From positions 1 to 45,382 of the forward strand of contig RFHH01000058.1 in NCBI GenBank assembly GCA_003696075.1: 45,382 nt of DNA, given 5' to 3'. The notes beneath the pieces were generated by a model that made no database searches, had not been told where the DNA came from, and saw only the letters and a program-made list of their open reading frames with translations. This DNA comes from Acidobacteriota bacterium (GTDB taxonomy: Bacteria; Acidobacteriota; Polarisedimenticolia; J045). This document shows positions 3,321 through 45,382 of this stretch, in pieces; position 1 is the stretch's first letter, and each line of letters opens with the position of its first letter. The translations under genes were made by a program, and so were the position numbers.

Positions 3321-3321
3321 G

Positions 3322-5141: not shown

Positions 5142-5158
5142 AGGGCAAGGAGAAAACG

Positions 5159-5920
5159 ATGCGTGACACCCCGCTCGTCGACCCCGACGTCGAGTGGACC
5201 GCGGAAGCCCGGATTCCCGGTTCCCCGGCGCGCGAGCGCCTTCTGCTCGCCCACGTGGGCCTGGTGAAGTACCTCGCCCACCGGATCGGGTCGCGGCTCG
5301 CCGGCCAGGTCGACTACGACGACCTCGCCGGCGACGGACTGCTGGGGTTGATCGAGGCAGTCGACCGCTTCGACCCGAAGCACAACGTCCAGTTCAAGAC
5401 GTACGCCGAGTCCCGGATCCGCGGCGCCATCCTCGATGGCGTGCGCTGCCGCGACTGGGCGCCGCGCTCGCTGCGCCGGGCGGCCCGCAAGCTCGAGTCG
5501 GCCATCCAGGCCGTCGAGGCGAGGAATCACCGGGAAGCCACGGACGAAGAGATCGCCGAGGAGCTGCAGATCTCCCTCGACGAGTTGCAGGCGCTCTACA
5601 TGCAGGCCAGAGGGGTCCGACTCGGCGCCCTCCCCGACACGGAGGAGGAGGGCCCCGGCCCGGTCGACCCGGGCGCCGACCCGCTGGATCACGTCGAGGC
5701 GAAAGAGCGCCGCGAGCTGGTCGCCGAGGAGATCAAGCGCTTGCCCGAGCGCGAGCGCATGGTGCTGAGCCTCTACTACGAGCGTGGGATGACCCTCAAA
5801 GAGATCGGCCAGATCCTGGACGTGACCGAGTCCCGCGTCTGCCAGATTCACACCCGCGCCGTCGCGCGTCTCAGGGCGCGGATCGCCGAACGCGTGAAGG
5901 TTCCGGAGGAGGTGAGATGA
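5159..5920 (+). CDS. fliA: Flagellar sigma factor FliA (sigma-28)
   Basis: FliA (253 residues) directs RNA polymerase to late flagellar promoters and is inhibited by FlgM. Region 2 is seen as LVKYLAHRIG, DDLAGDGLLGLIEAVDRFD and FKTYAESRIRGAILDGVR. Region 4 reads LPERERMVLSLYYERGMTLK and ends in the helix-turn-helix VTESRVCQIHTRAV. The ATG at 5159 is preceded by AAGGAG at 5147-5152; an earlier TTG at 5138 overlaps the flhG stop and is less likely. Four sites resembling its target promoter occur in this window: before flgM, motA, the 91-residue gene and the channel gene. Confidence 0.96.
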   Translation: MRDTPLVDPDVEWTAEARIPGSPARERLLLAHVGLVKYLAHRIGSRLAGQVDYDDLAGDGLLGLIEAVDRFDPKHNVQFKTYAESRIRGAILDGVRCRDWAPRSLRRAARKLESAIQAVEARNHREATDEEIAEELQISLDELQALYMQARGVRLGALPDTEEEGPGPVDPGADPLDHVEAKERRELVAEEIKRLPERERMVLSLYYERGMTLKEIGQILDVTESRVCQIHTRAVARLRARIAERVKVPEEVR

Positions 5921-5957
5921 GAAACGCCTCGCCGCGTGGGCGCCGGAGGAGCCGGCC

Positions 5958-6911
5958 GTGAGCCGCCTGCTGACCCAGGAGGAGGTCGACGCCCTGCTCG
6001 CATCCTTCGACGCGGGCGAGGGGAAGGAAACGCCCGGGCGCGAGGTGCCGTACGACCTGCGCGCCCCGATGATCCTCGCCGGGGAGAGGCTGGCGATGGT
6101 GCTGGCCTCCTGCGACCGGCTCGCCCGGCACCTCGGTGACGTCGTGACCTCGCTGATGGCCGCCGACCGCCCGGTTCGGGGCACCTTCACCGGGCTGGTC
6201 CAGCAGCCGGCGGCGACCGTCCTGGCGACGCTCTCCGCCACCGAGCCGGTGGGCCTGCTGCTCGACGAGCACGGCGAGGCCGTCGGCGGGCTCTCGTTCC
6301 AGACGGAGCTGGGCCTCGCCGTCGTGGACCGCCTGCTCGGAGGGAGCGGAGCCGTGGCCGACCGGCAGGTTCCCTCGCTGTCGATCGTCGAGACGAGGCT
6401 CCTCGGCGAAGCGATGGCGCGCGTCGCCCGCCACCTCGACCAGCACACCGTGCTCGCCCCGGTCCGGCCGGGCCCGCTCGAGACGGCTCCCGTGTTCGGC
6501 AAGCTCGCGGCGCGCGGCGGCACCCTCGCCACCGCGATGTTCCGGCTCGCCACGCCGATCGGGGATGCGGTGTGCCGCCTTCTGATGACGCCCGTCCTCG
6601 CCAACCGCCTCCTCGCCGAGGAACCCGACGAGCGAGGCGGCCCGACGCCGCCCGAACTCGAGCGGGCGCTGGACGGCGTTCCGGTCCGGGTCGCGCCGGT
6701 GGTGCACGGGGCGACGCTCCGCATGGGCGACGTGAAGAGGCTACGGCCCGGTCAGATCGTCCAGCTGGACGTGCGCGAGGAGGATCCGCTGGCCGTGCGC
6801 CTGAACGGCGAGCTTCTGGCCCGCGGGCAAATGCGCAGCGACGGCCGCCAACGGTGGTTCGAGATCAGGGAATTCGTTCGCGCTCCGGCCGCCGGATCGG
6901 ACGACGGCTGA
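5958..6911 (+). CDS. fliM: Flagellar motor switch protein FliM
   Basis: FliM (317 residues) is the middle part of the rotor switch (C-ring) and the docking site for phosphorylated CheY. The extreme N-terminus SRLLTQEEVDALLAS is the CheY-binding EIDALL-type peptide. A CheC-like middle domain follows, then a C-terminal SpoA domain (about residues 240-310; LRPGQIVQLDV...EEDPLAVRLNGELLARGQM). Translation starts at a GTG, chosen because it places the CheY-binding motif at the N-terminus. The gene lies 37 bp after fliA and 28 bp before fliN. Confidence 0.95.
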   Translation: MSRLLTQEEVDALLASFDAGEGKETPGREVPYDLRAPMILAGERLAMVLASCDRLARHLGDVVTSLMAADRPVRGTFTGLVQQPAATVLATLSATEPVGLLLDEHGEAVGGLSFQTELGLAVVDRLLGGSGAVADRQVPSLSIVETRLLGEAMARVARHLDQHTVLAPVRPGPLETAPVFGKLAARGGTLATAMFRLATPIGDAVCRLLMTPVLANRLLAEEPDERGGPTPPELERALDGVPVRVAPVVHGATLRMGDVKRLRPGQIVQLDVREEDPLAVRLNGELLARGQMRSDGRQRWFEIREFVRAPAAGSDDG

Positions 6912-6939
6912 TCCGCGGAGCGCCTGGAAGGAGATCGAC

Positions 6940-7344
6940 GTGAGCGAGACGAAGCAGGACAAGGGTTCCGGTGCCGGCGCCGCGACGGCCGAGCCGCCCC
7001 GGGACGAAGGCCCCGGGACGGCCGGTGCCGCTCCGCCGCAGCCGCCCCGGGAAGACGCCGCCGCTCCGGATGCCGAGTCCGCGCCCGCCGGGGCGGACTC
7101 CGCCGGCGGCGCCGCGATTCTCGAGAAACTCGAGCTACCGGTCGAAATCCGGTTCGGGAGCCTCACCTGGCCGCTGGGGAAGGTCCTCGAGCTGCGCGTC
7201 GGCGACGCCCTGCCGATCGGCCAGGAGGACGACGACGCCGTGACTCTCGTCGTGCAGGGCCGGCCGTACGCGAAGGGCGATCTGGTGGTCGTCGACGGCC
7301 GCTTCGCTTTCCGCGTCGCGTCGCTGCTGGGAGGAGACGAGTGA
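6940..7344 (+). CDS. fliN: Flagellar motor switch protein FliN
   Basis: FliN (134 residues) forms the lower C-ring and helps deliver export substrates. The first 60 residues are a Pro/Ala-rich acidic linker of low complexity. The SpoA domain follows (LPVEIRFGSLTWPLGKVLEL, GDALPIGQ, YAKGDLVVVDGRFAFRVASLL). The usual FliN ends with VTEII-type residues, absent here, but the fold signature is intact. The GTG start is preceded by GGAAGGAG. The stop overlaps the start of the next small gene. Confidence 0.92.
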   Translation: MSETKQDKGSGAGAATAEPPRDEGPGTAGAAPPQPPREDAAAPDAESAPAGADSAGGAAILEKLELPVEIRFGSLTWPLGKVLELRVGDALPIGQEDDDAVTLVVQGRPYAKGDLVVVDGRFAFRVASLLGGDE

Positions 7345-7613
7345 TGCCAAGCCTTCCGTTGCTCCTGATTCTCGGACTGCAGGTCCTGTTCAACCTCGCC
7401 GTTCTCGCTCTGGTCGTTCTGCTCCTCCGGCGGGAGCCCCGGGGCGTCCCCGCGGCCACCCCGCGCGCGGGGGCCAAGCCGCGTTCGCGCGAGACCGGTC
7501 CGCCGCCGCACCTGGCCGGCCTCGTCGCCCAGGCGGAGCGGGGAGAGGAACTCGTCGCCGAAGCGGGCCTCAAGGAGCGGTTGGCACGCTTCGCGCAGGG
7601 AGCGGAGGGGTGA
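7344..7613 (+). CDS. Small single-pass membrane protein, possible FliO-like
   Basis: This 89-residue product has one N-terminal transmembrane helix (residues about 3-26, LLLILGLQVLFNLAVLALVV) and a positively charged, proline-rich cytoplasmic tail ending in a short helix. I do not recognise a conserved family. Its size, topology and place directly after fliN are like FliO, a small bitopic protein of the export gate, but no FliO sequence signature is evident. ATG 7344 overlaps the fliN stop (TGATG) with GGAGGAG 7 bp upstream. GTG 7341 is an alternative start one codon earlier. Confidence 0.6.
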   Translation: MPSLPLLLILGLQVLFNLAVLALVVLLLRREPRGVPAATPRAGAKPRSRETGPPPHLAGLVAQAERGEELVAEAGLKERLARFAQGAEG

Positions 7614-7619
7614 CCGCCG

Positions 7620-7847
7620 GTGACCGGCGCGCTCCCGGCCCTCAGGGTGGGCGGCCTGTACCGGGCCCGGGCGTTGCGGCTGCTGCCGGACGGACGAGTC
7701 CGGCTGCAACTCGGCGGCGGGACGGTGACGGCGAGAGCGTTGCGGCCGGTCCGCGCCGGACAGGCCCTCGTCGTCGAGGTCGTGCGCCTCTGCCCGGAGG
7801 TGGTGCTCCGCGTGCGCGCGGCCGGGAAAGATCTGCCGGGTGGGTAG
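7620..7847 (+). CDS. Small beta-rich protein resembling the N-terminal module of FliK-type proteins
   Basis: This 75-residue protein has no signal peptide or membrane helix. Its pattern (RVRLQLGGGTVTARALRPVRAGQALVVEV...PEVVLRV) is an alternating-strand module. It resembles the repeated N-terminal region of long proteins annotated as hook-length control protein FliK, in which 'G-x-x-L-L-x-L-G-G-x-x-V-x-A' is followed by 'L-x-x-G-Q-x-L-x-x-x-V'. Here it stands alone. A GTG start lies 6 bp after the preceding stop. The assignment is pattern-based and uncertain; the function is unknown. Confidence 0.55.
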   Translation: MTGALPALRVGGLYRARALRLLPDGRVRLQLGGGTVTARALRPVRAGQALVVEVVRLCPEVVLRVRAAGKDLPGG

Positions 7848-7900
7848 GAAGGATCGTCCCCCGCGAGGCCTGCGAAGCGCGCGCGGGGCGGGCCTCCGCG

Positions 7901-7915
7901 CGGAACGGAGCTTGC
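7901..7915 (+). promoter_or_regulatory. Sigma-54-type promoter upstream of flgF
   Basis: CGGAACGGAGCTTGC matches the -24/-12 consensus TGGCACGNNNNTTGC at 9 of 11 defined bases. The invariant GG (7902-7903) and GC (7914-7915) have the required spacing. It lies in the 94-bp gap before flgF, the first real gap after fliA-fliM-fliN. Transcription would start near 7927, leaving a short leader that contains the flgF ribosome-binding site. Sigma-54 control of rod and hook genes is common in other flagellated bacteria; here it is an inference. Confidence 0.55.
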
Positions 7916-7941
7916 TAATCGCGGAAGGGGAGGAGAAGAGG

Positions 7942-8679
7942 ATGTTCCCGCAGCTCTACACGGCCGCATCGGGGTTGATCGCCGGCGAGCGGGCCCTCGA
8001 GCTGGTCACCAACAACCTCGCGAACGTCCGCACGCGCGGCTACCGGCCGGACAGACCGGTCTTCTCCAGCTACCTGCCGCCGGGATCCGCGCCGCGCGCC
8101 GCGGGCCCGGCAGGGCCGGTTCCGCGCGGCGTGGCGCTCGCCGGAAGCTACCGGCCCGATCTCCCGGGCCCGATCCGGCCGACCGGGGCGCCGCTCGATC
8201 TCGCGATCCAGGGAAAGGGCTGGTTCCGCGTCGCGACCCCGCGCGGTCTCCGCTTGACGCGCGACGGTTCGTTCCAGCGGGATGCGGAAGGGCGCCTGGT
8301 GACCGCGGCGGGCGATCCGGTGCTCGACGACCGCGGCCGCCCGATCCGCCTGCCGGCGGGGCGCGTGGAGATCGCCACCGACGGCACCGTGCGGGCGGGC
8401 GATAACGTGATCGCGCGCATCGGCCTGGCCGACGCGGAGGGGCGGGAGCTCGAGCGCGAGGGCGGTTCGCTCTGGCGGCCCGCCGGCACCCCGCCGGTTC
8501 TCGCGGCCGGCGAGACGCATCTCCTCCAGGGGCATCTGGAGGAATCCGGTGTCAATGCGACCGAGGAGCTGGTCCGCATGATCGAGGCCCAGCGCATGTT
8601 CGAAATGCAGCAGCGCATGGTTCACCTGACGGCGAACGAGCTGGCGCGCCGCGCGCTCGAGATCGGTAACCCGCGTTGA
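7942..8679 (+). CDS. flgF: Flagellar proximal rod protein FlgF
   Basis: FlgF (245 residues) is a rod subunit between FlgC and FlgG. It has the flagellar rod/hook N-terminal motif (LYTAASGLIAGERALELVTNNLANVRTRGYR, with the N-N-L-A-N core), the middle FlgE/F/G domain, and the C-terminal motif ESGVNATEELVRMIEAQRMFE. ATG 7942 is preceded by AGGAG and fits the family start; the open frame extends further upstream, but that part has no homology. It heads a run to flgL, probably from the sigma-54-type promoter just upstream. flgF is distinguished from flgG by its shorter, more divergent middle and by gene order. Confidence 0.9.
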   Translation: MFPQLYTAASGLIAGERALELVTNNLANVRTRGYRPDRPVFSSYLPPGSAPRAAGPAGPVPRGVALAGSYRPDLPGPIRPTGAPLDLAIQGKGWFRVATPRGLRLTRDGSFQRDAEGRLVTAAGDPVLDDRGRPIRLPAGRVEIATDGTVRAGDNVIARIGLADAEGRELEREGGSLWRPAGTPPVLAAGETHLLQGHLEESGVNATEELVRMIEAQRMFEMQQRMVHLTANELARRALEIGNPR

Positions 8680-8687
8680 GGATGACC

Positions 8688-8705
8688 CGGGGCCGAGCGG
8701 CCCCG
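8688..8705 (+). other. Intergenic stem-loop between flgF and flgG
   Basis: A 7-bp perfect stem (CGGGGCC / GGCCCCG) with loop GAGC lies 9 bp after the flgF stop and 20 bp before flgG. No T-run follows. It could slow 3' decay, adjust flgF to flgG expression or act as a weak terminator. One FlgF per about five FlgG is needed per rod, so a differential-expression role is plausible but unproven. Confidence 0.45.
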
Positions 8706-8724
8706 ATGACCGGAGGTCGAAGCG

Positions 8725-9510
8725 ATGGAACGGTCACTGTGGACGGCGGCGACGGGGATGGCGGTCCAGCAGACCAACATGGACGTCATCGCCCACAACC
8801 TGGCGAACGTCAACACCACCGCGTTCAAGAAGACGCGCGCCGAGTTCCAGGATCTTCTCTACCAGACGATCAATGCGCCCGGCACCGCCTCGAGCGCCTC
8901 GACGAATCTGCCGGCCGGTATCCAGATCGGACTCGGCGCCCGCACGGCCGCGGTCAAGCGCCTGTTCCTCCAGGGGGATTTCCGGCCGACCGACAATCCG
9001 TTCGACCTGGTCATCGAGGGGGACGGCTTCTTCCGGCTGACCCGGCCCGACGGTACCGCGGTGTACACCCGTGACGGGGCGTTCACGACCGACGAGAACG
9101 GCAACCTGGTCAACGCCCTCGGCTACGCGCTCGATCCGCCGCTGACGATTCCCCAGGACGCGAAGGGTCTGACGGTCGGGCGCGACGGCACCGTCTCCGT
9201 CCGCCTGTCGGACGAGACGGTGAGCCAGATCGGCAACATCGAGTTGGCGAGCTTCATCAATCCGGCCGGCCTGCAGGCCATCGGAGGGAACATGTTCGTC
9301 GCCACCGTGGCCAGCGGTGACGAGATCATCGGGACGCCCGGCCAGGACGGGCTCGGTGAGATCGGACAGGGATTCCTCGAAACCTCCAACGTGAGCATCG
9401 TGACCGAACTCGTCGACATGATCTCGGCCCAGCGTGCCTATGAGCTGAACTCGCGATCGGTGCGGGCGTCGGACGAGATGCTCCGTTCGCTGGCTCAGCT
9501 CGTCCGGTGA
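8725..9510 (+). CDS. flgG: Flagellar distal rod protein FlgG
   Basis: FlgG (261 residues, nearly the standard length) builds the distal rod. The N-terminus MERSLWTAATGMAVQQTNMD followed by the HNLANVNTTAFKK core is the classic FlgG start. The middle contains the EGDGFFRL and YTRDGAFTTDENGNLV blocks. The C-terminus holds ETSNVSIVTELVDMISAQRAYE and the SVRASDEMLRSLAQL tail. It is preceded by CGGAGGTCG and followed 13 bp later by flgA. Confidence 0.97.
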   Translation: MERSLWTAATGMAVQQTNMDVIAHNLANVNTTAFKKTRAEFQDLLYQTINAPGTASSASTNLPAGIQIGLGARTAAVKRLFLQGDFRPTDNPFDLVIEGDGFFRLTRPDGTAVYTRDGAFTTDENGNLVNALGYALDPPLTIPQDAKGLTVGRDGTVSVRLSDETVSQIGNIELASFINPAGLQAIGGNMFVATVASGDEIIGTPGQDGLGEIGQGFLETSNVSIVTELVDMISAQRAYELNSRSVRASDEMLRSLAQLVR

Positions 9511-9523
9511 CGGGAGGCCCGAG

Positions 9524-10489
9524 GTGACGCTCGCCGCACTCGCGCTCCTCGCCGCCGCCTCCGGCGCCGCGCCCGAAACCGCGGCGCTGGTCGTGAGGCT
9601 TCGCCCGGCGGTCAGCGCGCCGGCGGAGTCCTCCCTGCGGCTGAGCGACGTCGCCGATCTCTCCGGTCCGCTGGCGGAGCGGGCGGCGGCCGTCGCGCTC
9701 GGCCCGGCGCCGGCGGCGGGGCGCCGCCGCGGCCTCTCCCGGCTCGCGGTGCGCTCGGCGCTGGAGCGGTCCGGCGTGCCCTCCGGGCGCGTGCGCTTCG
9801 ACGGGGCGCGAGTCGTCCAGGTGACCGGCCTCGGCCAGCCGGTCGACACCGAGCGCGTGCGCCGCGCCATCGAGAGGGCTCTTCCCGAGTTCTTTCCCGG
9901 CCTCACCGTGCGAGTGGAGGAGGTCGCCGTGCCGCGCACGCTTCTCGTGCCGCCCGGCGACTACGAGGTCGAACTTCTCCGGCCGCGTCGTGCCCCGGTG
10001 ACGGGGAAGCTCCGCCTTCCGGTCGAGGTGCGGCCCGCCCGCGGGAAGCCGGTGCGGACGGGCGTCCTGGCCCGGATCGCCGCGGAAGGCCCTCAGGTCG
10101 TCGCGAGGCGGGACGTGCCGCGCGGCGCCGTGCTGACGGCGAGGGACGTGGCCGTGGAGACGCGGCCGCTGCGTCCGGGCGGGCCATGGCTCGCCTCCCC
10201 GGCCGAGGCGGTGGGACGGATCGCCCGCCGCGGGCTGCGCGCCGGCGAGCCGGTCCCCGCCGGCGTGCTGGGCGGCGCGCAGGCGGTCGAAGCGGGTCAG
10301 AGCGTCGTCGCCGTGTACCGCAGCGGCGGCGTCACTCTCACCCTCGAAACGGTGGCCCGGGCCGGGGGAGGCGTCGGCGCCGTGGTACCGGTCGCCGGAC
10401 CCGGCGGCCGAGGGGTCGTCAAGGCGCGAGTGGTGGCGCCGGGGCGGGTCGAGGTGATCGGCTCCGACGCCGCGCCGGCCGTGGAGTGA
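9524..10489 (+). CDS. flgA: P-ring assembly chaperone FlgA
   Basis: FlgA (321 residues) is a periplasmic chaperone for P-ring (FlgI) assembly. The N-terminus is a signal peptide (TLAALALLAAASGAAPETAA). The C-terminal half has the SAF-type domain: VVARRDVPRGAVLTARDVAV, then RIARRGLRAGEPVPAGVL, then VYRSGGVTLTLETVARAGGG. The protein is longer than enterobacterial FlgA because of the N-terminal region. The GTG start has GGAGG upstream. It directly precedes flgH and flgI, the genes for the rings it helps build. Confidence 0.9.
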   Translation: MTLAALALLAAASGAAPETAALVVRLRPAVSAPAESSLRLSDVADLSGPLAERAAAVALGPAPAAGRRRGLSRLAVRSALERSGVPSGRVRFDGARVVQVTGLGQPVDTERVRRAIERALPEFFPGLTVRVEEVAVPRTLLVPPGDYEVELLRPRRAPVTGKLRLPVEVRPARGKPVRTGVLARIAAEGPQVVARRDVPRGAVLTARDVAVETRPLRPGGPWLASPAEAVGRIARRGLRAGEPVPAGVLGGAQAVEAGQSVVAVYRSGGVTLTLETVARAGGGVGAVVPVAGPGGRGVVKARVVAPGRVEVIGSDAAPAVE

Positions 10490-10496
10490 GACGGTG

Positions 10497-11204
10497 ATGG
10501 CAGACAAGGCGCGCTTCCAGGTGGCACTCTTCGTCCTGGGGATGCTCGCGGCGGGATGCGCGACGACGCCCGGTCCCCAGCCGGGAGTCGACTACGGCCG
10601 GCTGCCGCCGCTCAACATCGCACCGCCCCCCGAGTACCTCTCCGAGGGATCGCTGTTCAACGAGAGCGGCGCGGCCGATCTGGTGGCCGATTTCCGCGCA
10701 CGGCATCCGGGCGACGTCCTGTTCGTGACGGTGACCGAATCGTCGCTCGGATCGACGACCGCCGACAACAAGCTCGACAAGTCCTCTTCCCTCAAGCTCG
10801 AGGCCCCGGTGATCTTCGGCTGGGAGAACAAGGCCAAGGGAGGACTCGGACCCGATTTCGATCCGGCGGTCGCGCTCGATGCCTCGACGACCAAGAGCTT
10901 CGAGGGGCAGGGGGAGACGACCCGCCAGGGGCACCTCTCGGCGAGGATCGCCGTGCGCGTGGTGGCGGTCGGTTCGGACGGGAGGATGGTGGTCGCCGGG
11001 TCCAAGCAGATCACGGTGAACCACGAGACGGAGACGCTGACGCTCGCCGGAATCGTGCGTCCCGAGGACATCGGCCCCGACAACTCCATCCTTTCGTCGC
11101 AGATCGCCGATCTGACGATCCGCTACGGCGGGAGCGGGGACGTGGCCGACGTGGCCCGGCAGGGATGGTTCCACCGGTTGATGGCGAAGATCTGGCCGTT
11201 CTGA
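10497..11204 (+). CDS. flgH: Flagellar L-ring lipoprotein FlgH
   Basis: FlgH (235 residues) forms the L-ring in the outer membrane. A lipoprotein signal peptide ends in LAAGC, whose Cys would be lipidated. The family core is seen in GSLFNESGAADLVADFRARH, GDVLFVTVTES, LSARIAVRVVAVGSDGRMVVAGSK and the C-terminal VRPEDIGPDNSILSSQIADL. It shows that the cell has an outer membrane. ATG 10497 was preferred over the adjacent GTG 10494. Confidence 0.95.
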   Translation: MADKARFQVALFVLGMLAAGCATTPGPQPGVDYGRLPPLNIAPPPEYLSEGSLFNESGAADLVADFRARHPGDVLFVTVTESSLGSTTADNKLDKSSSLKLEAPVIFGWENKAKGGLGPDFDPAVALDASTTKSFEGQGETTRQGHLSARIAVRVVAVGSDGRMVVAGSKQITVNHETETLTLAGIVRPEDIGPDNSILSSQIADLTIRYGGSGDVADVARQGWFHRLMAKIWPF

Positions 11205-11222
11205 GCCGTGGAGGATCGTGGG

Positions 11223-12353
11223 ATGCGTCGCGATCGGTTGGTGGCCGCCGCTCTTCTGGCGGCAGCGCTGTCGGCGGGGGCGGTCCCGGCGGAAACGCCG
11301 GCCGACGATGGCGGCGTCGCTCTGCGGGACGTCGTGGACATCCGTGGCGTCCGCGACAATCAGCTCGTCGGCTACGGCCTCGTCGTCGGGCTGGCCGGTA
11401 CGGGCGACGGCACCCAGGCCAAGTTCACCATCCAGAGCCTCGCCAACGCCCTCAAGCGGATGGGCGTGGTCGTGCCCCCCTCCGCCATCCGGGTGAGGAA
11501 TGCGGCCGCCGTGATGGTGACGGCAGAGCTGCCTGCCTTCGCCCGGCCGGGAACGCGCATCGACGTCAACGTCGCGTCGATCGGCGACGCGAAGTCGCTC
11601 ACCGGGGGAACGCTGCTGAGGACGCCGCTGCGCGGCCCCGACGGCCGGATCTACGCCCTCGCCCAGGGCCCGGTCAGCCTCGGCGGCGGGTTCGCCGCCC
11701 AGGGGGCCGGCGCCTCGGTCACCAAGAATCACACGACCACCGGCACGATTCCCGGCGGCGCCCTGGTGGAACGGGCCGCCGGGGCTCCGCTCGAGGGCCG
11801 AGACAGCTTCGACCTCCAGCTCCGCCAGCCCGACTTCCGCACCGCACAGCGGATCGAAGAGGCGTTGCAGCGGGAATTCGGCGCGCCGCTGGCGCACGCG
11901 GTGGACGCCGGCACCGTGCGGCTCTCCGTTCCCGCCGGCTACGCCGACCGGCCGGTCCAGTTCCTGGCCCGGGCGCTCGGCGTCCCCGTCCATCCGGAGG
12001 CGCCGGCGCGGGTGGTCCTCAACGAGCGGACCGGAACGGTGGTCCTCGGCGGCGATGTGCGGCTCTCCCGCGTCTCCGTGACGCACGGAAACCTGACGAT
12101 CAGCGTGGTCGACCGTTACGCGGTCAGCCAGCCGGCTCCGCTCTCCCCGAAGGGAGAGACGGTCGTGGTTCCCGAGGGCGAGGTGGTGACCGAAGAGGAG
12201 CAGGGACGGACCCTGAGCCTCGGCGAGGGGACGCGGGTCGAGGAGCTGGTCGAGGCGCTCAAGAAGATCGGCGTGACCCCGCGAGACATGATCGCCATCT
12301 TCGAGGCGATCCGCGCCGCGGGAGCGCTCCACGCCGAGCTGGTGGTGATCTGA
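11223..12353 (+). CDS. flgI: Flagellar P-ring protein FlgI
   Basis: FlgI (376 residues) is exported to the periplasm and forms the P-ring around the rod. A signal peptide spans about residues 1-23 (LVAAALLAAALSAGAVPA). Family blocks include LRDVVDIRGVRDNQLVGYGL, LANALKRMGVVVP, AAVMVTAELPAFARPGTRID, and the C-terminal LVEALKKIGVTPRDMIAIFE followed by AIRAAGALHAELVVI. ATG 11223 with GGAGG 8 bp upstream was chosen over an in-frame GTG at 11208. The stop overlaps the flgJ start (TGATG). Confidence 0.97.
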   Translation: MRRDRLVAAALLAAALSAGAVPAETPADDGGVALRDVVDIRGVRDNQLVGYGLVVGLAGTGDGTQAKFTIQSLANALKRMGVVVPPSAIRVRNAAAVMVTAELPAFARPGTRIDVNVASIGDAKSLTGGTLLRTPLRGPDGRIYALAQGPVSLGGGFAAQGAGASVTKNHTTTGTIPGGALVERAAGAPLEGRDSFDLQLRQPDFRTAQRIEEALQREFGAPLAHAVDAGTVRLSVPAGYADRPVQFLARALGVPVHPEAPARVVLNERTGTVVLGGDVRLSRVSVTHGNLTISVVDRYAVSQPAPLSPKGETVVVPEGEVVTEEEQGRTLSLGEGTRVEELVEALKKIGVTPRDMIAIFEAIRAAGALHAELVVI

Positions 12354-12763
12354 TGGGCGGGCCGGCGGCGATCGTCCCGGCGTCGGGTCCCCGGGAGGAC
12401 AGGGAGGCGGTCCGGCGGGCGGCGCGCGGGCTGGAGGCGGTGCTCCTCCGCCAGATGCTGGCCGCCATGGAGCGGGCGCAGTTGGAGGAGGGGCTTTTCG
12501 GCCGCTCCGCCGGGGCCGGGGCGCGGCAGACGACCTTCGAGATCCTTCTCACCGAGGCCCTGGCGGAGGCGGAGCCGCTGGGGCTCGCTCCGCGCGTGGC
12601 CGAAGAGCTCCTCGGCCCCCCGCAGGAACGTGACATTGTCCGGACCGGTTCACATATTTCCAGCAGAAGGGGTCAAGTCGCACCCCTTCCGGCCGAAGAG
12701 ATCTACGGAACCGACTGGGCCGCGGCGGGATCGGAGCGCGCGGCCCCGGAGAACGAACGATGA
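12353..12763 (+). CDS. flgJ: Rod-binding protein FlgJ, N-terminal domain only
   Basis: This 136-residue protein matches the rod-binding (rod cap) domain of FlgJ: LEAVLLRQMLAAMERAQ, then GLFGRSAGAGARQTTFEILL. The peptidoglycan hydrolase domain of enterobacterial FlgJ is absent, as in many other phyla, so a separate lysozyme or SLT enzyme should open the wall. The last 40 residues (from about 12640) have AT-richer codons and no family similarity. They coincide with a FliA-type promoter and an inverted repeat. The stop overlaps the flgM start (ATGA). Confidence 0.85.
   Translation: MGGPAAIVPASGPREDREAVRRAARGLEAVLLRQMLAAMERAQLEEGLFGRSAGAGARQTTFEILLTEALAEAEPLGLAPRVAEELLGPPQERDIVRTGSHISSRRGQVAPLPAEEIYGTDWAAAGSERAAPENER
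12666..12689 (+). repeat. 8-bp inverted repeat over the flgM promoter
   Basis: GAAGGGGT (12666-12673) and ACCCCTTC (12682-12689) form a perfect 8-bp inverted repeat with an 8-base loop. It covers the -35 element and most of the spacer of the FliA-type site upstream of flgM. It may be an operator, or a hairpin ending read-through from the flgI-flgJ transcript. It has no T-run. Confidence 0.45.
12673..12699 (+). promoter_or_regulatory. FliA (sigma-28)-type promoter upstream of flgM
   Basis: TCAAGTCG at 12673-12680 and GCCGAAGA at 12692-12699 are separated by exactly 11 bases. This resembles the sigma-28 consensus TAAAGTTT-N11-GCCGATAA (5/8 and 6/8). It lies in the 3' end of flgJ, and its start point would be about 54 bp before flgM. 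A FliA-driven flgM-flgN-flgK-flgL unit is the classic late-gene arrangement. Confidence 0.55.
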
Positions 12764-13101
12764 AGATCCCCGGATCCGACCCGCTCCACCGGCTGCGGGA
12801 CCTCCTGGACCGGCTCGAGGGCGGGCGCACCGCCGGGCGGGCCGGGCCCGGATCGAGCGAGGGCCCGGCGGAAAGCGGCGGGGCCGACAGCGTGCAGCTC
12901 TCCGAGCGGGCCCGCGAGCTCCAGCGCCTCCGCGCGGCGCTCATGGAGACACCCGACATCAGGCAGGAGCTGGTGGACCGCCTCCGGGACGAGATCGCCT
13001 CCGGCCGGTACCGGATCGACGGCACGCGGATCGCCGACGAACTGCTCCGGGAGGCGGACCGTCTCGCCGTTCCCGCCGACGATGGCCGCGGCGACGCCTG
13101 A
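12760..13101 (+). CDS. flgM: Anti-sigma-28 factor FlgM
   Basis: FlgM (113 residues) binds FliA until the hook-basal body is finished, then is exported through it. The conserved C-terminal FliA-binding part is clear: ADSVQLSERARELQRLRAAL, METPDIRQELVDRLRDEIAS, then GRYRIDGTRIADELLREADR. The N-terminal half is disordered and Gly/Arg-rich, as expected for a secreted intrinsically unfolded protein. Its start overlaps the flgJ stop; a FliA-type promoter lies 60-90 bp upstream. Confidence 0.93.
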   Translation: MKIPGSDPLHRLRDLLDRLEGGRTAGRAGPGSSEGPAESGGADSVQLSERARELQRLRAALMETPDIRQELVDRLRDEIASGRYRIDGTRIADELLREADRLAVPADDGRGDA

Positions 13102-13543
13102 GGCCGCCGTTTCGGCGGGCCTCGCTTCGATCCTGAACGCGGAGGCGGAGCTGTTCGACCGGCTGGCGGCGCTCGCCCGCGAGCAACGGGAAGCCCTGCT
13201 CGCCGCCGACCGCGATCTGCTCGAGCAGCTCGCCGCGCAGGCGCACACCCTCGGCACCCGTTTCACCCTGCTCGACGCGGAGCGGCGTCGGCTCGAGGAG
13301 GAATCCGGACCGCAGGGGGTGCCGGCCGACGAGGAGGCGGCCGCCGCACGGGAGCGGGCGGTGGCGGCGCTCCGGCGCCTTCTGGAGCAGGCGGCGCTCT
13401 CGGGCGCCGTGTTCGCACGCCTGGGCGACACGGTGGCCGTCCGGCAGGCGGCCGTCTCGGCCCTGTTCGGGGCGAGCTACCTTCCCGACGGACGCGCGGC
13501 CGGGCTGCGGGGCGCGGGCCTGGCGCTGTCGAAGGAGGGCTGA
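13082..13543 (+). CDS. flgN: Probable flagellar export chaperone FlgN
   Basis: The 153-residue protein is almost entirely helical with coiled-coil-like heptads (LNAEAELFDRLAALAREQRE, ADRDLLEQLAAQAHTLGTRF). That is the pattern of FlgN, the chaperone that delivers FlgK and FlgL to the export gate. FlgN proteins are poorly conserved, so the identity rests on size, helix content and position between flgM and flgK. It overlaps flgM by 20 bp in another frame. Confidence 0.8.
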   Translation: MAAATPEAAVSAGLASILNAEAELFDRLAALAREQREALLAADRDLLEQLAAQAHTLGTRFTLLDAERRRLEEESGPQGVPADEEAAAARERAVAALRRLLEQAALSGAVFARLGDTVAVRQAAVSALFGASYLPDGRAAGLRGAGLALSKEG

Positions 13544-13546
13544 GCG

Positions 13547-14947
13547 GTGAGCGCGTTCTCCCACCTGTGGCTCGGCGTCACCGCCCTGAGGGCGTTCCGC
13601 CGGGGGATGGACACCGCGGGCTACAACGTGGCCAATGCGAACACGCCGGGCTTTTCGCGCCGGAGGGTGGAGCTTGCACCGCTCGAGCCCTCGGCGGCGG
13701 CGTACAACGTCCCGGGCCTCGGCGTCGGTGTGGCGGCGGTCCGCCGCGACCGCGACCCGTTCCTCGACTTCGCCACCAGGCGCGAGATGAGCCGGCTCGG
13801 CGGCGACGCGGCGCGCACCGAGGTGCTCACCGCCCTCGAGCCCGCTCTCACCGCCGTGGACGGATCGGCCCTGACAGGCCCCCTGGGGGACCTGTTCGAC
13901 GCGTTCGAGGCGCTGGCCGTCCAGCCGGACGACCCCGCCCTGCGGCGCGACGCGATCGCGGCCGCGGAGAACCTCGCCGCCGCGATCCGCCGCTTCGACG
14001 CGCGACTCGCCGAGGCGAGACGCGCGGCCGATTCGCGGGTGGCCGATGCGGTGGACCGCATCAACGAGATCACGCGCCGGCTCGCCCAGATCAACGCGCA
14101 GCAGCCGGTGATCGAAGCGGGCGGCCCGGAGGCGAGCGACCTGCGCGACGAGCGCGACCGGCTGCTCGACGAGCTGTCGCACCTCGCCGGCGTTCAGGTC
14201 GTCTACGACGAGCGCGGCCGCGCCAACGTCTTCCTCCAGGCCACCGGTGACGCGCTGGTCACGGGTACGACCGACATGCCGCTCCGGCTCTCTCCCGACG
14301 GGGAGGGGATGCAGCGCGTGTACGTTTCCCGGGGCGGCGAGCGAGTCGACCTGACCGGCGTCCTGCGCCTGGGGAAGCTCGGGGGCCTCCTCGCCGCGCG
14401 CGACGAGACGCTCGTCGCCTACCGCGACCGGCTCGACGCCTTCGCGACGGCCGTCATCGAGGAGTTCAACGCCGCACACCGGGCCGGTTTCGATCTCGAC
14501 GGCCAGCCGGGCCTGGCGCTCTTCCTCCCCGACCCTCCGGGAGCGAGGCCGGCGGCGGCGATCGAGGTCAACACGTCGGTGGCGGACGATCCGCGCCGCG
14601 TGGCTGCCGCGTCGGCGGCCGGCGAGCCGGGCAACAACGAGAACGCGCTGGCGCTGGCCGGCCTGCGCGAGAGCACGCCGGCGGGACTCGGCGGACAGAC
14701 GCTGCTCGAGGCCGCCTCGGCGCTCGTCGGGGAGATCGGCCGGGACGCGGCCACGGCGGACCTCTCCCGGCAGGCGAGCGCCTCGATCGTCTCCTCGTTC
14801 GAGAGCCGGAGGCAGGAGGTCTCCGGCGTGAGTCTCGACGAGGAAGCGGCCAATCTCGCCCGCTGGGAGCAGTCGTTCCAGGCGGCCGCGCGCTTCATGA
14901 AAGTCGTCAACGACGTGACCGAGGTCGCGCTGCAGATCCTGAGGTGA
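13547..14947 (+). CDS. flgK: Hook-filament junction protein FlgK (HAP1)
   Basis: FlgK (466 residues) joins hook to filament. The N-terminus has the rod/hook-family motif in the GYNVANANTPGFSRRRVEL form. It is followed by the helical domain with LGDLFDAFEALAVQPDDPAL and the DLRDERDRLLDELSHLAGVQ block. The C-terminus carries GVSLDEEAANLARWEQSFQA and AARFMKVVNDVTEVAL, typical of FlgK and required for polymerisation. The GTG start follows the flgN stop by three bases. Confidence 0.96.
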   Translation: MSAFSHLWLGVTALRAFRRGMDTAGYNVANANTPGFSRRRVELAPLEPSAAAYNVPGLGVGVAAVRRDRDPFLDFATRREMSRLGGDAARTEVLTALEPALTAVDGSALTGPLGDLFDAFEALAVQPDDPALRRDAIAAAENLAAAIRRFDARLAEARRAADSRVADAVDRINEITRRLAQINAQQPVIEAGGPEASDLRDERDRLLDELSHLAGVQVVYDERGRANVFLQATGDALVTGTTDMPLRLSPDGEGMQRVYVSRGGERVDLTGVLRLGKLGGLLAARDETLVAYRDRLDAFATAVIEEFNAAHRAGFDLDGQPGLALFLPDPPGARPAAAIEVNTSVADDPRRVAAASAAGEPGNNENALALAGLRESTPAGLGGQTLLEAASALVGEIGRDAATADLSRQASASIVSSFESRRQEVSGVSLDEEAANLARWEQSFQAAARFMKVVNDVTEVALQILR

Positions 14948-14951
14948 GCCG

Positions 14952-15833
14952 ATGCGGGTGAGCGAGTCCTTCAGCCACCGGACGTTTCTCGACGGCCTCG
15001 AGCGGACGCGCCGCAACCTCGAGCGGGCGCTCGCGCAGATGGCGAGCGGCCGCCGGGTGAGCGTCGGCTCCGACGACCCGCAGGCCGCCAGGGAGATCCT
15101 CCGGCTCACCGAGGAGATCGGGAAGCTCGCCACGCGGCGGCGGACGATCGGAGCGGCGCGTCCCTGGCTGGAGGCGACCGAGCGGGCGGTCGGCGAGGTG
15201 GGGGACGTGCTCAACGCAGCGCTCCAGTACGCCGTCCAGGGGGCGTCGGACACGGCGGGCGACGAAGGGCGGCGCGCCCTCGCCCGGCAGGTCGCCGCTC
15301 TGCGCGACCGCTTGGCGAGCCTGGCGGAGAGCCGGCTCGGAGGCCGGTACATCTTCTCCGGCACGCGGACCGACACGCCGCCGTATGACGCGGCCGGCGC
15401 CTACCAGGGGAATGCGTCGTCCATCGAGATCCCCCTCGACGATCGGCGGCTCGCCATCAATCTCACCGCTCCGGAGGTCTTCGGGGAGAGCGGGGTCGGG
15501 GGGCCGATCGATCTGCTCGAGCGGTTGCAGCAGGCGCTCGAATCGGGCACGGCGGACGACGTCCACGCCCTCGTGGAGCCGCTCCGGGAGGCGATCGCCG
15601 ACAACGGGGAGAGGCTCGCCGAACTCGGGGCCCGGCGCTCGCGGCTCGAGGACGCCGACGTTCGGATCGGCGACCGCATCCTCGATCTGCAACGCCGGCG
15701 CTCGGAGCTGGCGGACGCGGACCTCGCCGAGGTGCTGTCCGAGGTCCAGCGACTGGAGACCCAGTATCAGGCCTCCCTGGAGGCCGGTGCGCGGATCGCG
15801 TCGGCCCCGACCCTCTTCGACTACATCGGGTGA
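14952..15833 (+). CDS. flgL: Hook-filament junction protein FlgL (HAP3)
   Basis: FlgL (293 residues) is the flagellin-like junction protein above FlgK. The N-terminal flagellin-type helix reads ERTRRNLERALAQMASGRRV with SVGSDDPQAAREIL. The middle contains GGRYIFSGTRTDTPPY, a hallmark of FlgL. The C-terminal helix includes DADLAEVLSEVQRLETQYQA. It starts 4 bp after flgK with GAGGTGAGCC upstream. It is not flagellin: it lacks the long variable domain and carries the FlgL FSGT motif. Confidence 0.95.
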   Translation: MRVSESFSHRTFLDGLERTRRNLERALAQMASGRRVSVGSDDPQAAREILRLTEEIGKLATRRRTIGAARPWLEATERAVGEVGDVLNAALQYAVQGASDTAGDEGRRALARQVAALRDRLASLAESRLGGRYIFSGTRTDTPPYDAAGAYQGNASSIEIPLDDRRLAINLTAPEVFGESGVGGPIDLLERLQQALESGTADDVHALVEPLREAIADNGERLAELGARRSRLEDADVRIGDRILDLQRRRSELADADLAEVLSEVQRLETQYQASLEAGARIASAPTLFDYIG

Positions 15834-40642: not shown

Positions 40643-41986
40643 GTGGACTACCCCCTCTGGATACCGTCGATCGGCCCGGGCGTCCTGATGGGGCTCGTGG
40701 CGATCGCCCACGTCACCGTCTCGCACTTCGCCATCGGCGGCGGCCTGCTGATCGCGGTCAGCGAAACGCTGGCGGCGCGGCGGGGCGACGATGCGCTGCG
40801 GGAACTCGCCCGGCGGTCTTCGTTCATGCTCATCCTCGTCTCGACCGTCTTCGGGGCGATCACCGGCGTCGGGATCTGGGTCGTCGCCGGCCTGGTCGCT
40901 CCGGCCGCGATCTCCACGCTGATCCACAACTACGTGTGGGGCTGGGCCATCGAGTGGGTCTTCTTCATCGTCGAGATCGTCGCGGCGCTCGTGTACTACG
41001 CGACCTGGGACACGATCCGGCCCGGTCTCCACCGGGCGATCGGATGGATCTACTTCGTCGCCGCCTACATGTCGCTCGTGATCATCAACGGGATCATCAC
41101 GTTCATGCTCACGCCGGGGCGCTGGCTCGAGACGGGCGCCTTCTGGGACGGTTTCTTCAACCCGACCTACTGGCCGGGACTGCTCCTGCGGACCGGGATC
41201 ACGCTGATCATGGCGGGGGCGTTCGTCTCGTTCACGCTTCTGCGCTCGCTGCCGGAGGACCGGTGGCGCCTCGCCCGCTATCTCGGGATCTGGCTCGTGG
41301 CCGGTTGCGCGCTGGCCCTGGCCGGATATCTCTGGTGGGAGCGGGCCCTCCCCGAGCCGGTGAGGTCGCTCTTCGCCGGGGCGGATCCTCTTCTCGCCTC
41401 GCTGGCCGCGACGCGAACCTTCCTCCTGGCCGCCCTGGCGGCGGTGGCCGTTCTGAGCGCTGCGTTCTACCTCGCCTGGCCGAAGGGGGCGCGACTGCCG
41501 GCGGCGGTTCTCCTGTTCGCGGCGGCGGTCTGCTTCTTCGGCGGCTACGAGCGCCTGCGCGAAGGGACGCGCAAGCCGTTCCTGATCAGGGACTACCAGT
41601 TCTCCAACGGCCTTCGCGTCGCCGACATCGCGGCCGTCAACGAGTCGGGCGTGCTGGCGCGGGCGCCTTGGGCGGCCCGCGGAGCGGCGCCGGATCCGGT
41701 GGACCGCGGCCGGCGCATCTTCATGGCCGAGTGCCGCGCGTGCCACACCATCGACGGCTACCTCGGCATCCGCGCCCGGCTTCCCGACGACCGGGACATG
41801 ATCTACGGGGTCGTCTATAGCCTCTACGAAAAAGGAGAGGCCTACGCGGAGGGCGCCGACACCGCATCGCTCGACTATCCGTTCATGCCTCCCTTCGTCG
41901 GGACCGAAGACGAGCTGGAAGCCCTCGTCGATTACCTCGCGAAGCTCGCCGCGCGCGGGCAGCCCTCTCAGGGAGCTTCACGATGA
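40643..41986 (+). CDS. CydA-like membrane oxidase subunit fused to cytochrome c
   Basis: The 447-residue protein joins a CydA-type membrane part (residues 1-330) to a class I cytochrome c domain. H23 aligns without gaps to H19 of E. coli CydA (heme ligand), and E104 to E99. INGIITFMLTP matches the conserved ANGWMQNP helix. R183 stands where CydA has H186, the heme b558 ligand. The C-terminal part has heme c motif C364-R-A-C-H and candidate axial M415 (FMPPF). The long quinol loop of CydA is absent. The most similar described group is the OR-C branch of the bd superfamily. GTG start with AGGTG upstream. Confidence 0.72.
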   Translation: MDYPLWIPSIGPGVLMGLVAIAHVTVSHFAIGGGLLIAVSETLAARRGDDALRELARRSSFMLILVSTVFGAITGVGIWVVAGLVAPAAISTLIHNYVWGWAIEWVFFIVEIVAALVYYATWDTIRPGLHRAIGWIYFVAAYMSLVIINGIITFMLTPGRWLETGAFWDGFFNPTYWPGLLLRTGITLIMAGAFVSFTLLRSLPEDRWRLARYLGIWLVAGCALALAGYLWWERALPEPVRSLFAGADPLLASLAATRTFLLAALAAVAVLSAAFYLAWPKGARLPAAVLLFAAAVCFFGGYERLREGTRKPFLIRDYQFSNGLRVADIAAVNESGVLARAPWAARGAAPDPVDRGRRIFMAECRACHTIDGYLGIRARLPDDRDMIYGVVYSLYEKGEAYAEGADTASLDYPFMPPFVGTEDELEALVDYLAKLAARGQPSQGASR

Positions 41987-43092
41987 ACCTCGAGCTGATC
42001 CCGCAACCGGATCCGACGCCCCTGCCGGGCCCGGCGTGGTTGTTCCATCTGCTGCTCGTCGTCACGTTCGTCTTCCATCTGATCTTCATGAACGTGGCGC
42101 TCGGCGGCTCCTTGCTGGCGGCGGTGGCCCACCTCACGCGGCGCGGCTCGGACGGTGTCCGTGACGAGTTCGCCCGGCGCCTCACCCGGGCGAACACCTA
42201 CGCCATCTCGCTGGCGATCACCACGGGAGTGGCCCCCCTCCTGTTCGTACAGGTGTTGTTCCAGCAGTACTTCTATCCCGCGACGATCCTGATCGCGCGC
42301 GGTTGGCTGTCGCTGGTGCTGCTGCTCCTCGTCGGCTACTACGCGACCTACCTCTACAAGTACCGCGGGCTCCCGGCGAGAGGGGAAGGGGGCGGGGTGT
42401 TCGCGGTCGTCGCCGCGGCGTCGTTCCTCGGGATCGCGATGCTCCAGGTGACGGTCAACCTCGTCCACTCGCAGCCCGACGAGTGGCCCCGTATCGCGGA
42501 TCGGCCGTGGTCGGTCGTGACGAGCCCCGTGTTCGTCGTGCGGGTGCTGCACTTCGTGCTCGCGGCGGTGGCGTTCACCGCTCTGCTCGCCGCGTGGTGG
42601 GCCGCCCGCGCGGCCGAGCGGGGGGAGGCCCCTCCCCTCAACGCGGCGATCGCCCGGTACGGGATGCGGTGGGCGCTCTGGAGCACGGCGGCTCAGGTCG
42701 CCGACGGGTTCTTGCTGCTGGTCCTGCTTCCGCCCGGGACCCTGACGCGGCTCATGCGCTCCGGCGCGGCGGCCATGGTTCCGCTGGCCGCGTCGGTGAT
42801 GCTCGCCTTCGGGACGATCGCGATGCTCGCGCGGGTCACCGAGCCGGTGGGCCAGCGGGGCCTGCTCGGCGGCGCCCTGGGTGCGATGACACTGACCGTG
42901 GCCGTGATGGCGGTGACGAGACATCAGGTCCGCCTCGCCTACCTGCAACCGGCCACCTCGAGGTTCACGCTGGCGGAGGCGCCCCAGTGGGGCAACTTCT
43001 TCCTGTTCGCCGTCCTGCTCGCCGGAGGCCTCGGGCTGCTCGGGTGGATGCTCCGCGCGGTGGCGATGGAGCGAAGGAACGCGGCGGGCTAG
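41983..43092 (+). CDS. CydA-like second subunit (CydA'-type)
   Basis: The 369-residue, strongly hydrophobic protein overlaps the previous gene by 4 bp (ATGA). It is not a CydB. Its helices repeat the layout of the first subunit: FVFHLIFMNVALGGSLLA (H32 aligned to CydA H19), VTVNLVHSQPDEW where CydA has the ANGWMQNP helix, and VVRVLHFVLAAVAFTALL (H190 aligned to CydA H186). It has no CxxCH. Together the pair looks like a heterodimer of two CydA relatives in which each supplies some heme ligands. Function in oxygen reduction is an inference. Confidence 0.65.
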   Translation: MNLELIPQPDPTPLPGPAWLFHLLLVVTFVFHLIFMNVALGGSLLAAVAHLTRRGSDGVRDEFARRLTRANTYAISLAITTGVAPLLFVQVLFQQYFYPATILIARGWLSLVLLLLVGYYATYLYKYRGLPARGEGGGVFAVVAAASFLGIAMLQVTVNLVHSQPDEWPRIADRPWSVVTSPVFVVRVLHFVLAAVAFTALLAAWWAARAAERGEAPPLNAAIARYGMRWALWSTAAQVADGFLLLVLLPPGTLTRLMRSGAAAMVPLAASVMLAFGTIAMLARVTEPVGQRGLLGGALGAMTLTVAVMAVTRHQVRLAYLQPATSRFTLAEAPQWGNFFLFAVLLAGGLGLLGWMLRAVAMERRNAAG

Positions 43093-43947: not shown

Positions 43948-45021
43948 TCAGTCGGCGCGGCGCGCCATCTTGTTGGCGAAGATGCTGAGAAGTCCGCCGA
44001 GCATCACGTAACCGATCACCACCTCGATCATCGCGAGCACCTGGGCGGCGGGAGACGCGGGGACGACGTCCCCGTAGCCGAGGGTGGTCAGCGTGACCAC
44101 GCTGTAGTACAGCGCCGAGAGCGGCGTCGGGTGCTCGCCGTAGTCGACCGCGACGTACTGGTAGAGCCAGGCGAAGCCGACCGCCACCCCGACGGTCCAC
44201 AGCGCCCAGCGCAGGAAGCTGCGCCCGCAGTCCGAGGTGATCTTCCATCCCCAGTACAGCACGGCCGACATCCGGCTCTGGTGCCGGAACTCGTGGAGGT
44301 AGTTCTGGTCGATCACCGCGCGCCGCAGCAGGTAGGCCCCGCAGAAATCGACGTCGACGATGTCCGCGCCGATCCAGTCGGCGCTGGTGTAGCCCGAGAC
44401 GCCCCGCACGCGCGCCCCCCGGAGGTCGGCGTCCGCGAAGCGCGCGCGGTCCACGCGGCTCCGCTCGAGATCGACCCCGCGCAGGTCGGCCCGCGACAGG
44501 TCGGCTTCGCGGAGGTCGCACTCGAGCATCCGGGCGTTCCGCAGGCGCGCCGCGCCGAGATCGGCGCGCCGGAGATCGGCGAGGCTGAGGACGGCTCCGG
44601 GGAGGGAGGCGTTGAACAGCGTGGCGCCCTTCAGGTTCGCCCCGCCGAATCCCGCTCTCTCGGCCGAGGCGTCGGTCAGGTCGGCGCCCTCGAGGTCCGC
44701 CTTGAGCAGTTGTGCCTCGTCGAGCCTCGCGCCGACCAGCGCCGCGTCGCGCAATTTCGCGCCCACGAGGCGCGCCCGGGACAGGTCGGCGTGGCTCAGG
44801 TCGGCGCCGGTGAGGTCCACCCCGCTCAGGTCCAGGCCCGAAAGGTCCACACCGGCCAGCCTCACGGCCCTCAGATCGGACGGAAGACCCGGGGGCCGGC
44901 CTCCCCCCTTCCGCCGCGCCTCCTCGAAGGAGGCCAGCAGGCGCTGCCTGGGGGTGCTCCCGTCCTCCCCCTCGGTTTCCCACCGGATGCCGAGCTGGGC
45001 CTCGTCCACCGCCGCGGTCAC
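43948..45021 (-). CDS. Pentapeptide-repeat potassium-channel-like protein
   Basis: The 357-residue product has a pentapeptide-repeat domain (residues 48-207) in perfect register. Leu, or Phe/Met/Val/Ala, occurs every fifth residue from 50 to 205, giving 32 units or eight coils of a right-handed quadrilateral helix. Four more units are centred at 216, 221, 226 and 231. Two membrane helices follow (about 269-292 and 325-349), flanking a pore with the selectivity filter T312-T-L-G-Y-G-D318, as in two-helix K+ channels. The GTG start with GGGGAGGATCC agrees with the domain start. A FliA-type site lies upstream; HDOD follows. Confidence 0.88.
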   Translation of the reverse strand: MTAAVDEAQLGIRWETEGEDGSTPRQRLLASFEEARRKGGGRPPGLPSDLRAVRLAGVDLSGLDLSGVDLTGADLSHADLSRARLVGAKLRDAALVGARLDEAQLLKADLEGADLTDASAERAGFGGANLKGATLFNASLPGAVLSLADLRRADLGAARLRNARMLECDLREADLSRADLRGVDLERSRVDRARFADADLRGARVRGVSGYTSADWIGADIVDVDFCGAYLLRRAVIDQNYLHEFRHQSRMSAVLYWGWKITSDCGRSFLRWALWTVGVAVGFAWLYQYVAVDYGEHPTPLSALYYSVVTLTTLGYGDVVPASPAAQVLAMIEVVIGYVMLGGLLSIFANKMARRAD

Positions 45022-45382
45022 GGATCCTCCCCACGCCCCGGAGGCGGGGCTCGACGTGGCACGTATCGGCCCGCCGGCGCGCTGCCTTGAGCCGGCGCCC
45101 GACGATCGTTCGCCGTTTCCCGGGATGGTCCGCCACGGACCGGCGCCGGACGGTATCCGGATCCGGCCCGAAGGGAGGGGTGGGCGCACAGTTCGGGAAG
45201 TGCTCCCTCGATGGTGCGAAACGCCGCGCAACGCGATGAAAAACCGACACTTCGGCCCCAATCCTCGGGCATCGATGCATCCGAGTGCGGAACCTCCGAT
45301 GGTCCAAAGACTTCGGCGCGACGACGCACCGTTGCGGATGCACCTCACTCGGAACGTGCCGCCGAAGGTCCGGGCGGCGCAG
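45022..45382. other. 361-bp region at the right edge
   Basis: It contains the FliA-type site for the channel gene and is less GC-rich than the rest near the end. TGCATCCG (45276-45283) and CGGATGCA (45335-45342) form an 8-bp inverted repeat 51 bases apart. No gene is convincing; long frames over it have no protein features. Confidence 0.35.
45063..45090 (-). promoter_or_regulatory. FliA-type promoter for the channel-HDOD operon
   Basis: On the minus strand: TCAAGGCA, 12 bases, GCCGATAC. The -10 matches the sigma-28 consensus at 7/8, and the -35 shares TCAAG with the other three FliA-type sites in the window. The spacer is one base longer than the usual 11, so the call is weaker. The start point would be near 45056, about 35 bp before the GTG. 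Confidence 0.45.

Follow-up and report, generated by a model that had tools for sequence, protein, structure and literature searches.

The window, a stretch of 45,382 nucleotides from an Acidobacteriota bacterium, contains two overlapping genes on the forward strand, here called A and B. Gene A (40643..41986) starts with a GTG at 40643, with GGGGAGGT shortly 5' of it, and ends with a TGA whose last base is 41986. It encodes a CydA-like subunit of 447 amino acids with eight transmembrane helices and a C-terminal mono-heme cytochrome c. Gene B (41983..43092) encodes a second CydA paralogue of 369 amino acids with nine helices; the overlap is 4 bp, with ATGA common to both genes. The A-B pair is preceded by a gene for a patatin-like phospholipase and followed by a convergent HDOD gene; with these neighbours, it stands alone. 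Elsewhere in the window, an ion-channel domain fused to pentapeptide repeats is encoded at 43948-45348 on the reverse strand. Positions 151-15833 contain, by inspection, flagellar export and structural genes (FlhB, FlhA, FlhF, FlgG, FlgI, FlgK and FlgL-like), which makes motility of the organism probable.

Protein A is a member of the cytochrome bd superfamily, as seen from Pfam, from HMM alignment to a known structure and from Foldseek. It matches Cyt_bd_oxida_I (PF01654) with 26.6 bits at a cut-off of 26.2, and the Cytochrom_C domain (PF00034) is also above its cut-off. The same Cyt_bd_oxida_I family is matched by 29 of 30 relatives of A. The A profile aligns to CydA of G. thermodenitrificans (5doq_A) with E=3.5e-9, and when the AlphaFold2 model is compared with the PDB by fold using Foldseek, CydA chains rank first. 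Searched against the PDB as a single sequence, A finds only cytochrome c or chance matches; a match to macrolide phosphotransferase was likewise rejected as due to chance. Structurally, the model has eight membrane helices with the cytochrome c domain after them, where canonical CydA has its ninth helix. The loops follow the positive-inside rule, with ten Lys and Arg residues inside versus three outside, which would place both ends of the protein outside, as needed by the cytochrome c.

Residue conservation was followed in 111 A proteins from many phyla, 109 of which cover the region of E307, the CxxCH motif and M415. In the alignment to 5doq_A, H23 (40709..40711) falls on the equivalent of E. 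coli CydA H19, the high-spin heme ligand, while E104 (40952..40954) and E111 (40973..40975) fall on the equivalents of E99 and of E107 in the proton path; each of the three is invariant (111/111). S144 (41072..41074), corresponding to S140 of the proton path, is Ser in 108 and Thr in 3 of the 111 proteins. E307 (41561..41563) lies in an E-x2-R-K-P motif and is placed by the 5doq_A alignment in the EVGRQPW motif; it corresponds to E445, the heme b595 ligand, just as R310 corresponds to E. coli R448. The equivalence of E307 and E445 is set by the HMM alignment and the R448-3 spacing, MAFFT alone being off by a gap. The cytochrome c domain (residues 353-432; 41699..41938) was identified by Pfam and is predicted to be periplasmic from the loop charges. 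It carries the heme c attachment motif C364/C367/H368 (41732..41746) as well as M415 (41885..41887), a candidate axial ligand of heme c. Together with E303, R306, E307, R310 and P312, the CxxCH motif and M415 are invariant in all 109 covering sequences. The number of CxxCH motifs per A protein varies from one to three across the family. By these alignments, A alone keeps the whole predicted two-heme oxygen site together with the proton-path residues.

Two further histidines are nearly invariant in A, namely H28 (108/111), whose position is occupied by Pro in canonical CydA, and H130 (110/111).

The ligands of heme b558 and the quinol site are lost from A. At the H186 position, the HMM alignment to 5doq_A places R183 (41189..41191; Arg in 111/111) and MAFFT the adjoining L182, neither of which is a ligand, and across the 111 A proteins the positions of H186 and M393 hold no ligand. 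The Q-loop is absent, the loop between TM6 and TM7 having only 12-14 residues in 108 of the 111 proteins, and K252 and E257 of the quinol site show no conservation in this set. An earlier, sequence-only reading of the window had assigned H23 to H19, E104 to E99 and R183 to H186, and had noted a C-terminal CxxCH domain with a candidate Met ligand; all of these assignments are borne out by the alignment and the family-wide conservation.

Protein B matches no family in Pfam or NCBIfam, its single-sequence search of the PDB returns nothing, and its profile gives one chance match there. B is a CydA paralogue, recognised as such by fold and profile only. The best PDB matches of its AlphaFold2 model (pLDDT 91.9) are CydA chains (5doq_A, E=1.6e-5, TMq 0.76), with CydB chains weaker in the same Foldseek search. 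In hhalign, B is related to A with 97% probability, to canonical CydA with 61% and to CydB with 8%, and the A profile matches several B proteins at E-values between 1e-9 and 1e-5. The profile comparison and the fold ranking rule out that B is a CydB, and the fold and the matches of the A profile rule out that it is an unrelated membrane protein. In the window's genome (3.3 Mb, 231 contigs, 98.6% complete), there is no match to CydB (PF02322), nor to a canonical or further CydA. Named relatives would place this genome within Acidobacteriota, closest to Thermoanaerobaculia and Holophagae. The claims that both genes are CydA-like and that neither is a CydB were thus correct, and the genome offers no CydB partner elsewhere. 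The HMM search against CydA families that had been proposed along with them succeeds for A, which is above the Pfam cut-off, but not for B; as the second subunit has no Pfam or NCBIfam model, annotation would miss half of the enzyme.

The hhalign alignment of B with CydA places H32 (42076..42078) on H19 and H190 (42550..42552) on the b558-type ligand H186, in agreement with the histidines that the sequence-only reading had picked out. H32 is conserved in 98 of the 98 sequences with a letter at this position. Inspection of the sequence reveals no acidic residues at the E99 and E107 positions of B.

A second axial ligand for the heme of H190 is proposed to be M309 (42907..42909), since the two residues co-vary. 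In 138 B sequences, both are present in 121, neither in 17 and only one of them in none; four further sequences end before M309 and are outside this set. When lost, H190 is replaced by Phe or Met, and M309 by Ala, Leu, Phe, Asn or Trp. The losses occur in at least three places, i.e., one Acidobacteriota clade (100/100 in the tree) and the loci L028 and L122. A pair of axial ligands to the same heme would be expected to show such joint losses at separate places. However, the counts are of rows and not of independent genomes, as a few genomes entered twice and many rows are related, so the weight of the co-variation rests on about three events. The pattern is the mark of a ligand pair, predicted to bind a single heme of the b558 type. 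The proposal that ligands are split between the subunits accordingly needs to be narrowed: it applies to the b558-type pair, which is lost from A and found in B, but not to the oxygen site, which is whole in A. E307, E111 and S144 in A and M309 in B extend the list of ligand equivalents given earlier.

The observation is more general than could be seen from the window alone. At least 565 relatives of A were confirmed in one scan, and the A-B pair is very widespread, being found in Acidobacteriota, relatives of Desulfuromonadales, Zixibacteria, Calditrichota, Armatimonadota, Verrucomicrobia, Omnitrophota, Methylomirabilis and others. Linkage was followed in 80 named loci, three of which are cut at contig ends. 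In all the 77 testable loci A and B are neighbours: 74 have the order A-B, one has B-A, and in two a Rieske and a cytochrome b gene lie between them. Variations on the pair include two tandem A genes ahead of B in a member of the Ignavibacteriae (L101:5949-9719), and an octaheme cytochrome c gene directly after A-B in Geobacteraceae and relatives (L066, L067, L078, L083, L088, L090).

Five whole genomes, each from a different Acidobacteriota family (G235, G189, G171, G096 and G244), have the order B - Rieske - cytochrome b - A; the domains were assigned by Pfam in two of them and through the Rieske motif in the other three. Loci with this operon are L125-L129, L089 and L173-L181. There is no cytochrome c1 gene inside these operons. 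As B and A are separated by genes for Rieske and cytochrome b, with no cytochrome c1, heme c of A most likely receives its electrons from a bc complex. Directly 3' of B, the Rieske gene is present in G244 and throughout a clade of nine members. The closest relatives of G244 carry plain A-B pairs, so the union with the bc genes has probably happened at least twice.

We suggest that A and B probably form a heterodimeric bd-type oxygen reductase that is fed by cytochrome c. The heme c of A would be reduced on the periplasmic side by a bc complex, an alternative complex III or periplasmic cytochromes, and the electrons would then move to the two-heme site of A (H23/E104 and E307). There, oxygen would be reduced to water with protons that reach the site from the cytoplasmic side via E111 and S144. 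As the protons would come from the cytoplasm, the reaction would charge the membrane, like that of canonical cytochrome bd. B would stand in the place of CydB and keep a b558-type low-spin heme at H190/M309, possibly as a relay. For the A-B pair we infer complex formation, heme occupancy, electron route, oxygen reduction and proton coupling. The predicted entry of electrons into A through cytochrome c is well supported by the anatomy of the protein and by gene linkage. The sequence-only reading had gone further, with cytochrome c instead of quinol as the donor. Its positive half is strengthened by the fused cytochrome c, by the lack of a Q-loop and quinol residues in A and by the Rieske-cytochrome b operons, while the exclusion of quinol does not follow.

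It can be speculated that, in the stand-alone pair, quinol is an input after all, alone or besides cytochrome c. Its electrons would reach the b558-type heme in B first and A from there, while heme c would serve either as relay or as another input. B keeps the His of b558, the heme that adjoins the quinol site in canonical CydA, along with the co-varying Met. Moreover, H190/M309 are lost in all nine examined members of the clade with bc operons, as expected if such an input had become redundant. However, the losses with bc linkage belong to one clade and may be a single event, the bc-linked G244 keeps the pair, and the pair has also disappeared from two lineages in which no bc genes are linked. 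Also, A has neither the Q-loop nor K252/E257, and the connection between TM6 and TM7 in the model of B is short. On balance, we consider a quinol input unlikely.

A strict rule that the heme of B is lost wherever bc genes are linked was rejected, as G244 has linked bc genes and both residues, while L028 and L122 lost the residues without linked bc genes. From the bc-linked clade, where H190/M309 are missing and the residues of A are kept, it appears that the heme of B would not be strictly required for oxygen reduction. It may relay electrons, provide another entry point or simply be a remnant. A more elaborate scenario is that a CydA duplication was split by function, with the oxygen site and cytochrome c in A and the b558-type heme in B, the latter serving as quinol entry in stand-alone pairs and being lost once the bc complex joined the operon. 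If true, this would be a bd oxidase accepting both quinol and cytochrome c, a scenario we regard as rather improbable. From H190/M309 in B and from the operons with linked bc genes, direct predictions follow on heme roles and electron entry.

For a cytochrome-c-fed A, electron donors exist in the window's genome, as it encodes one cytochrome b, two NrfD-type (complex III-like) proteins and one cytochrome c assembly protein. On contig C141 of this genome (G000; loci L169 and L170), a cluster of multiheme cytochromes with up to 11 CxxCH motifs and an MtrC/MtrF-like domain is located close to genes for NrfD, cytochrome b and cytochrome c assembly. This cluster suggests extracellular electron transfer.

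The multiheme cluster and the octaheme cytochrome c adjoining A-B in Geobacteraceae are also what could be expected if the pair were no oxidase at all, but a complex that transfers electrons between periplasmic cytochromes and the quinone pool. The family occurs in Geobacteraceae, which live largely without oxygen, so another function of A-B is possible. Electron transfer of this kind was raised earlier for the bd-like proteins with 14 helices in Nitrospina and Nitrospira (PMC3578206). However, all residues of the oxygen site and of the cytoplasmic proton path are kept in A, although such a complex would have no need of them, and no quinone site is seen, making this reading quite unlikely.

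Alternatively, the pair could be an oxidase that serves mainly to remove nitric oxide, peroxide or oxygen and not to conserve energy. Canonical bd enzymes have such activities too (PMC8509429), and the two heme-copper oxidase subunit I genes in the window's genome could cover ordinary respiration. The linkage to bc complex genes points instead to a respiratory chain, and the neighbours in the window, patatin-like and HDOD, are not stress genes. A primarily detoxifying role is thus very unlikely.

Taking A-B as an oxygen reductase fed by cytochrome c, its closest known counterparts are found within the bd superfamily, which is split into qOR, OR-C and OR-N (PMC13189123; family names also in PMC11707229). 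The quinol site exists in one of the bd families only, and for the remaining ones cytochrome c or some different donor is assumed; all bd enzymes characterised so far are quinol oxidases, which is a point against the cytochrome-c-fed reading of A-B (PMC8509429). In the literature we found no biochemistry of the A-B pair or of any cytochrome-c-fed bd-type enzyme. Such enzymes have so far been proposed from sequence, and A-B would be a member of this kind. With its divided ligands and its bc-linked operons, the pair is worth testing.

In the tree, the A clade stands apart from qOR and from the long OR-N-like proteins (support 100/99). Compared with the canonical CydAB of qOR, A has the same CydA fold, the ligands of the two-heme site and the proton-path residues. 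However, A-B lacks both CydB and the Q-loop, and the b558-type pair is in B and not in A. An archaeal CydAA' from Caldivirga maquilingensis, reportedly described by Murali in 2021, is said to be an oxidase of two CydA paralogues without CydB and to use quinol. A-B resembles it in the pairing of CydA proteins without CydB, but differs by the fused cytochrome c and the missing quinol site in A.

The OR-C family (Murali, Gennis and Hemp 2021), as far as it is described in citing papers, has a CydA homologue with two active-site hemes and no quinol site, and cytochrome c is its proposed donor (PMC8509429). By the same descriptions, A is similar to OR-C in the active-site ligands, the absence of a quinol site and the association with cytochrome c. 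Given its lack of a quinol site, its fused cytochrome c and its own clade, A-B is likely a member of OR-C.

The OR-N enzymes of nitrite oxidisers (Nitrospirota, Nitrospinota) are proposed to be CydAA' pairs with cytochrome c as donor (PMC10839748, PMC12342949). They share with A-B the two CydA paralogues, the absence of a quinol site and the proposed donor. However, the bd-like protein of Nitrospina has 14 predicted helices (PMC3578206), while A has eight and a cytochrome c domain. The long CydA of OR-N, in which extra helices replace the Q-loop, is thus not what is seen in A.

Long CydA-like proteins of more than 600 amino acids exist in other Acidobacteriota (L114, L116 and L117), in addition to a shorter one (L115). 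These proteins, L115 included, form a separate clade in which H186 is kept, the E99 position is occupied by Tyr and there is no equivalent of E445. The genes at L114 and L117 are located near cytochrome c genes.
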